Positions 49,738 through 53,841 of a stretch of 53,841 nt of DNA are shown in pieces. The notes beneath the pieces were generated by a model. The model searched no databases, was not told the origin of the DNA, and saw only the letters and a program-made list of their open reading frames with translations. Positions within the stretch are counted from its first letter, which is position 1, and each line of letters starts with the position of its first letter. This DNA comes from Oscillospiraceae bacterium. GTDB lineage: Bacteria > Bacillota > Clostridia > Oscillospirales > Ruminococcaceae. The translations under genes were made by a program, and so were the position numbers. The stretch is taken from NCBI GenBank assembly GCA_021200775.1, contig JAJQGB010000011.1, positions 1 to 53,841 of the forward strand, written 5' to 3'.

Positions 49738-49766
49738 TTGACAAGCATGCTGAACTGTGATATACT
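49738..49766 (+). promoter_or_regulatory. Promoter of the first NPTTG protein gene
   Basis: TTGACA (49738-49743) and TATACT (49761-49766) with a 17-bp spacer. This gives a leader of about 155 nt before the start codon. Confidence 0.88.
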
Positions 49767-49805
49767 TATCGCAGTAGGGAGAAGTATCTTCCAAAATGTA
49801 AAAAT

Positions 49806-49925
49806 CTGTGTGGGGGGGTAACGCTTTCCGCGTGCCCGCTAACAACCTCCGACACTAAATCGGTGCTCCGGGGGCTTTTATATTTTTCCTCCGTAGTCGC
49901 CGTAAAGACTATTTAGGAGGAATTT
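49806..49925 (+). promoter_or_regulatory. Structured leader RNA A (orphan riboswitch or translational-switch candidate)
   Basis: GTGGGGGGGTAACGC (49810-49824) opens a small hairpin (ACGC-TTTCC-GCGT) enclosed by GGG/CCC. After GCTAACAA comes a second hairpin (CCTCCG/CGGGGG, inner CAC/GTG) and CTTTTATATTTTT. The final stem pairs TTCCTCC (49886-49892) with the Shine-Dalgarno GGAGGAA (49916-49922), reinforced by TAGTC (49894-49898) with GACTA (49907-49911), and would hide the ribosome site. Similar layouts precede the next two genes. Confidence 0.65.
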
Positions 49926-49928
49926 TTT

Positions 49929-51911
49929 ATGGCAAAAAAACTACTGTGCGTTCTTCTCAGCGCGCTGATGGTGGTTTCAATACTTCCGATGGGAGTATTT
50001 GCGGATGGTTCTCATACTGCAACTACCCTATGGGTTGATGCAACATTGAGCTATTCATCTGCCGAAGCGGGAACTGTGGTGACGGTCACTCCGGGCGAAG
50101 GGCTTGGCATCTATGCGTTGTATTTTTATACATACGAAGATAATGTTTATACATACATGGGTGAGGTTGAGTACACTATCAGTGATGACAATTCATCTGC
50201 TACTTTTGTAATGCCTGACTATGATGTTCTGGTCAGTGGCGAAATTGTCAAAGAATCTGTGCATGAACTTGAATACACTCTATTTGCGGAGTACGACTGG
50301 ACTATAGCTCAGGAAGACCTTGAAGCCTATGACGGCGAAAACACCGAAGAGAAGGCTGTCACATGGGTTAATTCTGTTATGAACACTTGGGATATAGACG
50401 AAAGCCTCACATGGGAAGTGAGCATCTATTATCTTTCCGAACCTGTCGCAGAGGACAAAGAAAACAATGTTGAAGCCGTTGATGGAACTGTTGGAATACG
50501 CATTACATTGCCTGATGAGGATTACACCTTTGGAAGAACTGGCACAATAGTAGCAACAACGAGTTCACCTACCACCGAAGAAATCCTTGCGGCTAACCAA
50601 GAACTTATTGCCACGCTTTCTGAGCTTTTGGAGACCGAGGAGGTTATGTACATTGACCAGTTGGGCTCTAACGATGATTATGGTTGGTATGATTATTTCC
50701 TGACTGTTTATTATGGCGAAGCACATCCGAATTGGGATGAAATAGTGGCGAGTTGGATTAGCAGTCTCGGCGACGAAGCTAATATAGGACTGGCTGCTAC
50801 ATACTATAAAGCACCTGTTGCGGGAACAGAAGACGACCCCGACGGCACAGATGGTCTTTTGACTATGAGCTATATTGCAGATGTCGGTTCTGCGGAAGAC
50901 GGTACCTATGTAGAGTCTGATTACTACTACGTCGACGTTGTTATCAAGGCAATACCTTACGGTGCCCATTCTATAGACCCGAACTTTAGCAATTCTTATG
51001 GCTATGCAACTTCCAGCAAGAATTACGCAGTTGCGGGCGAAGAGGTTACGATAACTGTTACATCTGAGTATACTATCAGTCAGGCTCAGGTTCTCTATCT
51101 TAACGATGAGGGAGAAATGTGTGAGGTAGAGTGCACAGATAACGGCAATGGAACCTTTACCTTCATCATGCCTGATGCTGATGTCTGGATGAACTTTTTC
51201 ATTGGTGCGAGACCGGTTAATTATTGTTCAGTTATGTACTTCATTGAGTATCCACAGGCGAAGATTGACGGCGTTGATTATGCCGATGCTGGCGATGAAA
51301 TCTCGTTCACAATGTATGTTCGCAGTGGTTATGAGCTTGACGGAGAAGTCACTGCTGTTGATGCAGTTGGTAATACTGTAGCGCTTACTTTGCAGGAAAC
51401 CTATGCTACGACATATAACAGTGAGTCAGTCACAGCTTATGTCTACAGTTTCACCGCACCTGAATGTGGAGTGGTAATTTCTGCAAGCTTCAAGGAAATT
51501 TCAACCGCAACCGAGCCTGACCTGTCAACAATCCTCGCTGATTACACTGCGGTCAAGAACGCAATTGCAAAGGCGAATGCTCTTAATCCTGACGATTACA
51601 CCAACTTCTCTGAAGTCACGAATGCTATCAATGCCGTAAACTGGTCTTATAGCGTGCTTCAGCAATCGGGTGTCAATAGAATGGCTGAGAAGATTGAAAA
51701 TGCGATTGCGAACCTGATTCCTGCGAATATAACTTTGGAAGAAGTCAATATCACCGAACCCATCGAAGACACTAACACTACCGACGAGCCGGATGATACC
51801 GATGTCGACGATTCTGATGTTGAAGAAACAAACCCGACAACCGGCATCACCATTGCATTATTGCCGATGGTAATAACCCTTGCTGTGGCGGTGGCAGGGA
51901 AGAGAAAATAA
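49929..51911 (+). CDS. Secreted surface protein with an NPTTG sorting tail
   Basis: A 660-residue protein with a signal peptide (MAKKLLCVLLSALMVVSILPMGVFADG, cleavage near residue 26). The mature region has two related beta-rich 'lobes': one near 35-105 (SAEAGTVVTVTPGEGLGIYALYFYT ... SATFVMPDYDVLVSG) and one near 375-425 (AVAGEEVTITVTSEYTISQAQVLYL ... FTFIMPDADVWMNFF), with a further APECGVVISASF copy near 515. They resemble bacterial Ig-like repeats ending in 'xFxMPDxDV'. A helical region (530-600) and acidic linker lead to NPTTG, a hydrophobic segment and KRK, a cell-wall sorting signal of the clostridial (S/N)PxTG type. Translation is probably controlled by the leader hairpin. No catalytic motif is seen. 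Confidence 0.85.
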   Translation: MAKKLLCVLLSALMVVSILPMGVFADGSHTATTLWVDATLSYSSAEAGTVVTVTPGEGLGIYALYFYTYEDNVYTYMGEVEYTISDDNSSATFVMPDYDVLVSGEIVKESVHELEYTLFAEYDWTIAQEDLEAYDGENTEEKAVTWVNSVMNTWDIDESLTWEVSIYYLSEPVAEDKENNVEAVDGTVGIRITLPDEDYTFGRTGTIVATTSSPTTEEILAANQELIATLSELLETEEVMYIDQLGSNDDYGWYDYFLTVYYGEAHPNWDEIVASWISSLGDEANIGLAATYYKAPVAGTEDDPDGTDGLLTMSYIADVGSAEDGTYVESDYYYVDVVIKAIPYGAHSIDPNFSNSYGYATSSKNYAVAGEEVTITVTSEYTISQAQVLYLNDEGEMCEVECTDNGNGTFTFIMPDADVWMNFFIGARPVNYCSVMYFIEYPQAKIDGVDYADAGDEISFTMYVRSGYELDGEVTAVDAVGNTVALTLQETYATTYNSESVTAYVYSFTAPECGVVISASFKEISTATEPDLSTILADYTAVKNAIAKANALNPDDYTNFSEVTNAINAVNWSYSVLQQSGVNRMAEKIENAIANLIPANITLEEVNITEPIEDTNTTDEPDDTDVDDSDVEETNPTTGITIALLPMVITLAVAVAGKRK

Positions 51912-51950
51912 CGGATATCATCCGCCATCTAATTTTTAGACTGTAAATAC

Positions 51951-51996
51951 TTGGCTTCCCTCTTTGGGGGAGCTGTCAGCGAAGCTGACTGAGAGG
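51951..51996 (+). repeat. GGGGAGCTG-type palindromic repeat
   Basis: GGCTTCCCTCTTTGGGGGAGCT, then GTCAGC-GAA-GCTGAC and TGAGAGGG, close to the copy at 34620-34664. It lies between the first NPTTG gene and its terminator. Confidence 0.85.
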
Positions 51997-51997
51997 G

Positions 51998-52020
51998 CGC
52001 CCCGTCAGGGGCGTTTTTCT
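51998..52020 (+). terminator. Terminator after the first NPTTG gene
   Basis: CGCCCC-GTCA-GGGGCG followed by TTTTTCT; the repeat runs directly into it. Confidence 0.85.
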
Positions 52021-52054
52021 TTCCAAAAAATTTTAAATATCCCCCGAAAACCTA

Positions 52055-52083
52055 TTGACATACGCTCTGAAATATGGTACAAT
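52055..52083 (+). promoter_or_regulatory. Promoter of the SGNH hydrolase gene
   Basis: TTGACA (52055-52060) and TACAAT (52078-52083) with a 17-bp spacer. The leader is about 210 nt and begins with a CACTTAT/ATAAGTG hairpin. Confidence 0.88.
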
Positions 52084-52186
52084 ATTAATATAAGGATAAG
52101 ATAAGCGTCCACTTATTTTATAAGTGCGCACTTATTATTTTAAGTTCGGGCTTGTAAAATGCGCTTGTCTTGTCAATACAATCACA

Positions 52187-52295
52187 CTTTTGGGGCGGGA
52201 ATACGGCTTCGCGCCGGCTAACCCCGACAAATCTATCAATCGTGAGGGAGGTTTCTATATTTTGGCTCCCCACGAAAAATACCAAGGAGGTAACC
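52187..52295 (+). promoter_or_regulatory. Structured leader RNA B (same architecture as A)
   Basis: TTGGGGCGGGAATA leads into the hairpin CGGC-TTCGC-GCCG, then GGCTAACCCC, whose CCCC can pair with the GGGG at 52192-52195. A second imperfect hairpin (AACCCC/GGGAGGTT) is followed by TCTATATTTTGG. CTCC (52266-52269) or TTGG lies opposite the Shine-Dalgarno AAGGAGG (52284-52290). Order and spacing match leader A, though the terminal stem is weaker. Confidence 0.55.
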
Positions 52296-52298
52296 TTA

Positions 52299-53339
52299 AT
52301 GAAAACAACCCGAAGAATCCTTAGCGTAGCCCTGGCAATGGTCCTTGCAGTCTGCATGTTGACGAACGTTGTATTTGCCGACGCAAATATGCTCATCAGC
52401 GCCATGAACTCGACTACTTATCTTGCTCTCGGCGACAGTATCACCGCCGGCTATGGTCTTTCTGACCCCGACTCCGAGTGTTTTGTTTCTATATTTGGAG
52501 ATGAAATCGGCGCCACCACCATCAATTATGGCGTTTCCGGCTTGACTGCCGCAACCCTTTCCGAGACTCTTGCAACCGGTGAATATGATACATATCTCGC
52601 AATGGTCGACGTCGTAACCCTCACTATCGGTGGCAACGACCTTATGCACGCTTTCTATGAGTATCTTCTGAGCCTTTACAACGCCGCTTATGGAACCGAA
52701 CTGACCGTTACCGACGTCCAGACCTGGTTCACCGACGGCACTTCCTACCAGCAAGAGATTGCCACCGTTATGGCACTTCTTACATCTGACGAAGGCATTG
52801 CAGGAGCGACAGCCGCAGTTTCCACTGCCGCAACCACTGCTCTTGCCGATATCCAGTCCATCATTACAAAGATTCTCACCGTCAATCCTGACGTTGTAAT
52901 CCTTCTTGCGAACCAGTACAACCCGTATGCTTCGCTTGCAGTTCTTGAAGACTATGCCGCAATCAGCAACCTCTTTGACACTGCTGTAACCGCCTTCAAT
53001 GCGCTTCTTACACAGGTCGGTGCGATGGGCGACAATGTCGTAGTTGTTGACGTTTACTCCGCTGGAGTTGCCACCAACGTGAACATCCTCACCATGAACT
53101 TTGATTTCCACCCGAACGCTTCCGGACATGCTACTATTGCAGAAGCAATGGCAACTGCCTATGCATCTGTTTCAGCTTCCGCTGAGACCGAGCCTGAGCC
53201 TGAGGCTGACACCACTGTAGCTGAATCCGAGCCGGCAACCACACCTGAAACCACCGAAAACCCGACCACCGGCATCGCCATCTCGCTTATTCCGATGGCA
53301 ATAGCCCTCGCCGGAGTGGCTCTTTCCAAGAAAAAGTAA
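52299..53339 (+). CDS. Secreted SGNH/GDSL hydrolase with an NPTTG sorting tail
   Basis: A 346-residue protein: signal peptide (MKTTRRILSVALAMVLAVCMLTNVVFA), SGNH-hydrolase domain (about 38-300) and a Glu/Pro/Thr-rich linker ending in NPTTG, a hydrophobic helix and KKK. Catalytic blocks are visible: block I YLALGDSITAGYG (nucleophile Ser), block II NYGVSGLTA, block III LTIGGNDL, and block V DFHPNASGH (Asp and His). Such enzymes are esterases, often deacetylating wall polymers or glycans; the substrate here is unknown. ATG 52299 follows AAGGAGG. The tail closely matches that of the preceding gene (NPTTGIAISLIPM against NPTTGITIALLPM), suggesting the same sortase anchors both. Confidence 0.92.
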   Translation: MKTTRRILSVALAMVLAVCMLTNVVFADANMLISAMNSTTYLALGDSITAGYGLSDPDSECFVSIFGDEIGATTINYGVSGLTAATLSETLATGEYDTYLAMVDVVTLTIGGNDLMHAFYEYLLSLYNAAYGTELTVTDVQTWFTDGTSYQQEIATVMALLTSDEGIAGATAAVSTAATTALADIQSIITKILTVNPDVVILLANQYNPYASLAVLEDYAAISNLFDTAVTAFNALLTQVGAMGDNVVVVDVYSAGVATNVNILTMNFDFHPNASGHATIAEAMATAYASVSASAETEPEPEADTTVAESEPATTPETTENPTTGIAISLIPMAIALAGVALSKKK

Positions 53340-53360
53340 GTTCCTAGGGTTTCCTCATAA

Positions 53361-53406
53361 GTCGGCAGGCGGCGGTTTTTGATACGTTTCCGCCGCCTGA
53401 GCCGAC
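53361..53406 (+). other. Large GC-rich hairpin after the SGNH gene
   Basis: GTCGGC-A-GGCGGCGG pairs with CCGCCGCC-TGA-GCCGAC (14 bp) around a TTTTTGATACGTTT loop. No T-run follows, so it is a transcript-end or mRNA-stability structure and not a classical terminator. Confidence 0.7.
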
Positions 53407-53414
53407 ACATACGT

Positions 53415-53561
53415 GGAAACCCCTCAGTCAGCCTTTGGCTGACAGCTCCCCTTTCAGGGGAGCCTATAACTGCCTCTATCAAGGCTTTTGTGAGAAGCAG
53501 TCAAAGCCTCCCCTGAAAGGGGAGGGGGACCGCCGGCGAAGCCGGTGGTGGAGGGGTTTCC
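53415..53561. repeat. Composite palindromic element built of two GGGGAG-type repeats
   Basis: An 11-bp perfect terminal inverted repeat (GGAAACCCCTC 53415-53425, GAGGGGTTTCC 53551-53561) encloses a reversed GTCAGC/GCTGAC plus GCTCCCC/GGGGAGC copy (53418-53464) and a CCTCCCC/GGGGAGG plus CCGCCGGC/GCCGGTGG copy (53504-53560). No ORF is inside. The layout is that of a non-autonomous MITE. Confidence 0.78.
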
Positions 53562-53575
53562 GAATACCCAATTTG

Positions 53576-53698
53576 CGTGGGGGGGTAACGCGCTTCGCGC
53601 GTGCACGAAGTGTGTTTACCCAATAAAAACCTCCATACTGACAGTATAGGAGGTTATACTTTTAGCCTCCTGACAAGCCAATATCAAGGAGGCGTTTT
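53576..53698 (+). promoter_or_regulatory. Structured leader RNA C (same architecture as A, identical 15-nt core)
   Basis: GTGGGGGGGTAACGC (53577-53591) is identical to leader A. It forms ACGCGC-TTC-GCGCGT, with GGGTAA able to pair with TTACCC downstream. The second hairpin is AACCTCCATAC/GTATAGGAGGTT (53628-53655), followed by ATACTTTTA. GCCTCCT (53665-53671) pairs with the Shine-Dalgarno AGGAGGC (53687-53693). I see no clear promoter between the composite repeat and this leader. Confidence 0.65.
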
Positions 53699-53700
53699 TA

Positions 53701-53841
53701 ATGAAGAGAAAAATATCAGCAGTTATCCTGAGCCTGTGCCTTATTTTATGTACTATGGCAGGAATGACAACAACAGTAGCCGGAGCAGTAGTACATGTGC
53801 ACAGCCTGACGCACATTGAGGCGCAAGGAGCGACCTGCACG
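53701..53841 (+). CDS. Start of a third secreted protein (truncated by the window edge)
   Basis: The first 47 residues: basic MKRK, a hydrophobic core (ISAVILSLCLILCTMAGMTTTVAGA) typical of a signal peptide, then VVHVHSLTHIEAQGATCT. The 'H-x-L-T-H-x-E-A-x-x-A-T-C-T' phrase resembles the short Cys/Trp-containing repeats of many clostridial surface proteins. The reading frame is open at the window end. AGGAGGC lies 7 nt upstream inside the leader C stem. Function cannot be judged from this fragment. Confidence 0.8.
   Translation, partial: MKRKISAVILSLCLILCTMAGMTTTVAGAVVHVHSLTHIEAQGATCT

Follow-up and report, generated by a model that had tools for sequence, protein, structure and literature searches.

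Toward the 3′ end of a 53,841-base contig (C8) of an Oscillospiraceae bacterium, three consecutive genes are each preceded by a leader RNA, here called A, B and C. The contig, one of the 17 that make up this 2.06-Mb genome, was analyzed whole and is referred to below as the window; the leaders, leader parts and downstream genes of the window described here lie on the + strand. Each of the three genes begins with a signal peptide and two of the proteins, those behind A and B, end in an NPTTG tail, as the first-pass annotation of the window had noted. The gene of leader A (49929..51911) encodes a 660-aa protein with no Pfam match at E ≤ 0.1, the gene of leader B (52299..53339) is GDSL lipase-like (PF13472, E 2.9e-19), and the gene of leader C (53701..53841) is cut by the contig end at 53841. 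The annotation had further proposed that all three leaders share one structured RNA. Leaders A (49806-49931) and C (53570-53703) indeed fall in a single structured leader-RNA family, as recognized by the covariance model R2 described below; B appears to be of a different or strongly diverged type. From comparative sequence analysis we consider it probable that A and C carry a new riboswitch-like class of cis-acting leader, a two-state switch that is OFF by default and serves a surface regulon. The class appears to be previously uncatalogued and bound to one clade.

Architecture of leaders A and C

Folding and alignment showed A and C to be plainly alike. They are joined by a 30-nt repeat of 83% identity and share the 15-mer GTGGGGGGGTAACGC as well as a common order of parts, both of which had been reported earlier. 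In leader A, a promoter-like site (TTGACA, 17 nt, TATACT; a consensus match only) at 49738..49766 precedes a 5′ stem-loop, P0 (GGGAGA/UCUUCC, 49777..49792), that was read from the sequence. A run of seven G, segment 0 (49812..49818; sequence and member parse), leads into hairpin P1 (GGG-UA-stem-CCC, 49816..49837), which is backed by alignment, covariation and arm swapping. The two arms of P2 follow, segment 1 (CCUCC, 49846..49850; member parse and alignment) on the 5′ side and segment 2 (GGGGG, 49870..49874; member parse and arm swapping) on the 3′ side. P3 is formed by segment 3, a CCUCC anti-Shine-Dalgarno sequence (49888..49892; arm swapping and duplex/flank permutation), and segment 4, the GGAGG Shine-Dalgarno sequence (49916..49920; sequence and arm swapping). 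Leader C repeats this layout with a seven-G segment 0 (53579..53585; sequence and member parse), a P1 whose inner part is extended (53583..53621; sequence, fold and R2 match), segment 1 (CCUCC, 53630..53634) and segment 2 (GGAGG, 53649..53653), both from sequence and member parse, and segment 3 (CCUCC, 53666..53670) and the Shine-Dalgarno segment 4 (GGAGG, 53688..53692), both from sequence and arm swapping.

The same plan was read from 107 of 112 fetched entries, with L127, L132, L138, L042 and B excluded. It opens at the 5′ end with a variable stem P0, followed by the G-run and UA, and by P1, which is closed by GGG:CCC and very variable inside. A short linker then leads to AACCUCC (segment 1), an inner stem of the ACAC/GUGC type and GGAGG or GGGGG (segment 2), and a U-rich stretch to CCUCC (segment 3) and GGAGG (segment 4), the latter mostly the Shine-Dalgarno site. 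Among 40 non-redundant members, 39 have a better fold in the 52 nt 5′ of the G-run than shuffled sequences have on average (mean z -2.37). The G-run itself is 5-9 G long, with 6 or 7 in 92/107 members; five of its columns are invariant in 40/40 aligned members, and CCUCC is equally constant.

The output is of several kinds. A Shine-Dalgarno sequence with a start codon ends 83 of the 107 parsed leaders, so that the ending described in the first-pass annotation is the usual one and not the only one: 14 members have a terminator-like P3 hairpin, 6 have P2 only with a U-tract, 3 hold the Shine-Dalgarno sequence in P2, and L086 is unusual, these non-Shine-Dalgarno classes being assigned by eye. More terminator members were found among 15 loci fetched afterwards, two of which (L191 and L194) are doubtful. 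In the short leaders L098, L115 and L118, in which P2 itself holds the Shine-Dalgarno sequence, the G-run is the sole visible rival partner for CCUCC.

An inverted repeat (53446-53524; 37-nt arms, 84% complementary) lies close ahead of leader C and separates it from a hairpin; in L054 and L058, a similar hairpin stands immediately ahead of the same leader. The repeat looks like a small inserted element.

Family models and distribution

A pattern search of the window's own genome turned up a fourth copy, D (C9:133151), and otherwise mostly noise (13 and 13 forward matches, against 14 and 24 in backward controls). The covariance model R1, built from A, B, C and D, gave 17 matches in this genome at E ≤ 10, some of them non-members. 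With R1, 10 of 41 genomes (the own genome and 40 relatives), all of one genus, had matches at E ≤ 0.1; G008, G015 and G016 had one weak R1 match each (≤ 23.7 bits) and none with later models. Model R2 was then built from 21 leaders of other genomes, excluding any sequence of the own genome and any B-type leader. In the window it recovered C with 102.2 bits (E 7.8e-20) and A with 83.5 bits (E 6.8e-16); the scores below these were an antisense match (23.5 bits), B (22.5 bits) and another match (16.2 bits). Across the 31 genomes of the genus, R2 gave 110 matches at E ≤ 0.01, all of them in 11 genomes.

The third model, R3, covers the sensor part only and was made from 40 members, A and D included, that had been aligned without regard to structure. 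It gave about 125 matches, counting one antisense match over another (G043:C20) and a few doubtful ones, in the same 11 genomes as R2 and none in the other 20. Stricter filters, which weak distant members could escape, were used in the R1 search of 41 genomes and in wider searches with R3. These wider searches, run on 394 genomes of the order at E ≤ 0.001 and on 391 of the class at E ≤ 1e-4, matched 4 genomes and 1 genome, respectively. The class match was the own genome. Two of the order matches belong to this genus; the two outside it, L167 and L168, are weak (28.1 and 27 bits) and were rejected, being by eye ordinary terminators. Matches this rare indicate a resemblance beyond chance. An exact sensor pattern found 17 stretches in a collection of 84,980 species, which may omit the own genome or near ones. 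Sixteen are in genomes of this genus, and the seventeenth, L162, on a 5,458-base contig of a metagenome-assembled genome named Clostridiales bacterium U.9_7, clearly belongs to the family when judged by eye and has a terminator. In viral contigs, one narrow exact pattern found no stretch, and a phage or viral origin was rejected on that ground.

CTP synthase of the 11 carriers is 97-100% identical to that of the window. In the 19 further genomes where it was matched the identity is 82-86%, leaving aside two short additional fragments (G022 and G013); G041 gave no match. By this identity, rather than by a tree, the carriers are one tight group.

Comparative support for the pairings

When 40 members are aligned structure-blind with MAFFT, 77.5% of cells pair; sliding the alignment lowers this to 42.7-52.5%. 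The covariation score is 0.194, against 0.051-0.101 for slid alignments, and was reached by 0 of 500 shuffles. The stems were also assessed independently of any alignment: 103 members were clustered at 80% similarity, and arms were swapped among the 40 clusters obtained (36 for P3). Swapping weakened P1 from -17.5 to -12.0 kcal/mol, P3 from -14.0 to -10.1 kcal/mol and P2 from -13.4 to -12.7 kcal/mol; the gain for P2 is small, and for each stem 0 of 200 permutations matched the native arms.

The alternative pairing of segment 2 with segment 3 was examined in the same spirit. Native 2:3 duplexes average -13.2, against -11.8 when permuted (0/2000), and this permutation test found no excess for 1:4 (1282/2000) or 0:3 (1820/2000). 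The flanks of 2:3 outside the CCUCC/GGAGG core also gave a signal (1/5000), compared with 454, 3449, 2095 and 4779 of 5000 for four control pairings. Moreover, L195 (in the duplex test) and L196 (by eye) carry CCCC in place of CCUCC, and their partner arms change along with it. Kinship among members is a caveat for covariation, which the control pairings limit. Together, these comparisons support P1, P2, P3 and the alternative 2:3 helix, clearly for P1 and more weakly for P2. A riboswitch is expected to have a conserved structured sensor and mutually exclusive pairings that link the sensor to the output; covariation shows the former in this family, and the co-variation of 2:3, set against 1:2 and 3:4, points to the latter. 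The first-pass annotation had suggested a covariance model, searched in related genomes, as a check, and its expectation was borne out: the stems co-vary, and matches lie mostly ahead of secreted genes.

Genes downstream of the leaders

A Shine-Dalgarno rule assigned a downstream open reading frame (ORF) to 101 of the 112 entries, with orthologues counted repeatedly and B included. By a rough hydropathy rule, 88/101 of these ORFs have a signal-peptide-like start, compared with 7/40 other ORFs of the window; L059 and L116 were scored negative, yet by eye resemble signal peptides. A Pfam scan of 20 selected downstream proteins identified a YukD and FtsK/SpoIIIE-type operon (type VII secretion), PP2C and protein kinase genes, Sel1, dynamin, Wzz and acyltransferase 3 families, SpaA pilins and BspA-type leucine-rich proteins, and gave no match for five of the 20. 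Very short peptides are also among the leader-controlled genes. The leader runs on into alike signal peptides (MAKRLxCVxLSxLM...) ahead of differing mature proteins.

The regulon thus appears to be largely one of the cell surface, comprising secreted and sortase-type proteins, pilins, type VII secretion and exopolysaccharide chain-length control. The earlier idea of an orphan leader governing a surface-protein regulon holds for A and C. The gene set is not confined to surface proteins, since cytosolic and operon genes, including those for type VII secretion, PP2C, Wzz and dynamin, also stand behind leaders.

The type VII secretion operon lies at L163:1-6559 and encodes a ParA-like ATPase, YukD and an FtsK/SpoIIIE ATPase; its terminator-type leader is that of L099. 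Leader-controlled ORFs of 39-60 aa occur at L034:1653-1793 (+), L035:1324-1503 (-), L102 and L113:558-677 (+), and three of the four have YEEPxF near the start and glycine-rich stretches. These ORFs look like precursor peptides; the two that were scanned, at L113 and L035, had no Pfam match. A short ORF at L196 has a double-glycine-like leader.

Known RNA classes and candidate signals

Searches against Rfam 15 agree with the earlier statement that no known riboswitch class fits, as no threshold was reached by a leader where this was tested. At the gathering threshold, a scan of the window returned two tRNAs only. A permissive search of the A-C region gave five sub-threshold matches, none over a leader, and a scan of 14 loci with further members gave four sub-threshold matches, of which one, to mir-255, lay over the terminator hairpin of L096 (29.7 bits against a cut-off of 50). 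These scans covered the window, the A-C region and the 14 loci, with other members lying outside them, and no cyclic di-AMP (c-di-AMP) riboswitch model was among their matches. The DAC domain of c-di-AMP synthesis is present in 31/31 genomes of the genus and does not single out the carriers. Among the papers listed by the literature searches, none describes such a leader in its title or the first lines of its abstract, and few-word text searches gave no occurrence in the searched text of papers on new bacterial noncoding RNAs (PMC11109978, PMC8632094). That the class is undescribed is thus a statement about a limited literature search and Rfam.

Cyclic di-GMP (c-di-GMP) was considered as a candidate ligand. 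Published work on Clostridioides difficile reports that it regulates sortase substrates (PMC4591827) and acts on virulence-factor genes via riboswitches (PMC6200980), and the c-di-GMP-I riboswitch (GEMM, RF01051) resembles the present leaders in that it precedes genes for adhesins, pili and sortase substrates. In contrast to that class, leaders of the A and C family are below all Rfam thresholds where tested, and the carriers have neither a GGDEF match nor RF01051. GGDEF proteins were matched in 0/11 carriers and 18/20 non-carriers (G024 and G041 lack both leader and GGDEF), and RF01051 in 0/11 carriers and 2/31 genomes of the genus, both non-carriers. The GGDEF contrast is one evolutionary contrast and speaks against c-di-GMP made by a GGDEF protein. 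Since no GGDEF protein was found in any of the 11 carriers, c-di-GMP is very unlikely to be the ligand, and it was rejected.

Proposed mechanism and alternatives

We propose that in the resting state the G-run would be held in P1, segments 1 and 2 would form P2 and segments 3 and 4 would form P3, which would hide the Shine-Dalgarno site or, in other members, make a terminator, leaving the gene OFF. A signal acting on the G-run/P1/P2 domain would break P2, possibly via capture of segment 1 by the G-run. Segment 2 would then pair with segment 3, segment 4 would be freed, and the gene would be ON. The trigger is most likely a small intracellular ligand other than c-di-GMP, the main alternative being a trans-acting protein or C-rich small RNA that binds the G-run. 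Pairing of the G-run with segment 1 is suggested by the short P2-only members L098, L115, L118, L123, L125, L126, L133, L143 and L146; as a proven ON helix it was rejected, since neither covariation nor computed ensembles back it, and we keep it as a possibility. Like orphan riboswitch candidates, the family of A and C combines a conserved sensor, an output that can be either a terminator or a Shine-Dalgarno hairpin, and a set of genes under common regulation. Unlike them, as far as searched, it occupies one shallow clade plus L162, its G-run varies in length, and its ligand is not hinted at by any biosynthesis gene.

Several observations weigh against this switch. The 40-member alignment has several misregistered rows, and only 51.6% of the cells of its inner P2 helix pair; it shows no increase in further types of pair (68/500 shuffles), and one slid alignment equals its count of doubly changed pairs (7). 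P2 is the weakest stem, with no excess in the short-arm duplex test (733/2000) and little from its flanks alone (191/5000). In computed ensembles the OFF fold is favored: 2:3 has 0.11 expected pairs against 4.45 for 1:2, and is ahead of 1:2 in only 1 of 36. With 2:3 near zero in these ensembles, the ON state would have to be driven by a factor or arise during transcription. Pairing of the G-run with segment 1 gave no covariation signal (1056/2000), and before segment 2 exists the G-run prefers segment 1 in only 6/40 members, mostly staying with the P1 region. The length of the G-run differs in 10 of 37 near-identical leader pairs, which is odd for a tight ligand pocket. Finally, all members except L162 come from one tight clade, and their counts are therefore not independent.

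Some of these features would suit a trans-acting factor that works the switch, whereby a clade-specific RNA-binding protein or a C-rich small RNA on the G-run would decide the fate of P2. A G-run that is very constant (five columns in 40/40) yet 5-9 G long, and differing in length even between near-identical pairs, fits a landing site more than a pocket, and within the searches made the class stays in a single clade. LoaP leaders, which belong to long Firmicutes operons, contain a hairpin, as do the leaders of the family of A and C. The family differs from them in that 83 of the 107 parsed members have a translational output and that the 11 carriers have no additional NusG paralogue. NusG is single-copy in 30 of the 31 genomes (none was found in G021, which is 76% complete), a second NusG was present in 0/11 carriers, and a NusG/LoaP-type factor was rejected; the search was aimed at NusG, and other factors were not sought. 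We regard a trans-acting factor as a plausible contender, though we lean against it. Attenuation by ribosome stalling on a leader peptide, translational or transcriptional, would use the same logic, as attenuators of the ermC/cat and trp types consist of four alternating segments in which 1:2 with 3:4 excludes 2:3. Here, however, the G-run/P1 domain precedes segment 1, a Shine-Dalgarno-preceded ORF runs into segment 1 in only 7/40 non-redundant members, and a start codon lies 4-14 nt past the G-run in 6/40; as no leader ORF is conserved over segment 1, this explanation was rejected as very improbable.

The thermosensor raised in the first-pass annotation would have P3 melt with temperature, and a CCUCC:GGAGG hairpin over a Shine-Dalgarno site does suffice for a thermometer. 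We nevertheless see only a slim chance of it, because P2, the G-run domain with P1, and the covarying 2:3 helix would be needless, and because some members have terminator-like hairpins in place of the Shine-Dalgarno hairpin. A similarly slim chance attaches to a spreading repeat, or a duplicated cassette of leader and signal peptide, with no regulatory function. The continuation of the leader into similar signal peptides ahead of different mature proteins, and the restriction of all copies except L162 to one clade, would be natural for such a cassette. Against it, unrelated non-secreted genes are also preceded by the leader, the arms co-vary despite strong divergence (40 clusters at 80% similarity of 103 members), terminator and Shine-Dalgarno forms are swapped, and the one narrow exact pattern gave no match in viral contigs.

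Our preference therefore remains a riboswitch-like leader. If the switch is real, one uncatalogued RNA would coordinate much of the surface display in a group of Oscillospiraceae without detectable c-di-GMP synthases, and a single sensor would drive transcriptional and translational outputs by way of successive CCUCC/GGAGG arms that hardly differ from one another. The search for a new intracellular signal could then draw on about a hundred natural copies, which fall into 40 clusters at 80% similarity. The class would also illustrate how an RNA limited to one narrow clade goes unnoticed by catalogues that favor widely spread motifs. It is tempting, although we think it unlikely in full, to extend the proposal to a new riboswitch class that answers a non-c-di-GMP signal and runs a surface, pilus, exopolysaccharide and type VII regulon in this clade without detectable GGDEF proteins, with G-run length as a mutable tuning knob for surface variation.

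Leader B and other observations

Leader B (52184..52301) was difficult to align from the outset. Early alignments that held A, B and C together had B out of register and were discarded, and an RNAalifold helix between the G-run and the P1 loop, derived from such alignments, was dropped once more sequences were added. B scores highly with R1 because it went into building that model; R2, built without it, places B below the antisense match, which we take as chance. B lacks the first CCTCC arm, and its computed fold is a 2:3-like stem of its own. A promoter-like site of the TTGACA-17-TATACT type (a consensus match) lies ahead of it at 52055-52083. The leader occurs in 3 species ahead of the GDSL lipase gene; its orthologues at L054:257-374 and L058:245-361 precede closely similar genes and likewise retain a fold unlike that of A and C. 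B thus appears to be a different or strongly diverged leader type, whose membership in the family of A and C is unsupported by R2. One speculation is that B is a relative that has diverged and become locked in the open state.

A CRISPR-like array with the repeat GTCTCCCTCCCCACGGAGGGAGTGGATTGAAAT was met in the pattern search at L014-L017 (contig C6 of the own genome, about 64-69 kb).

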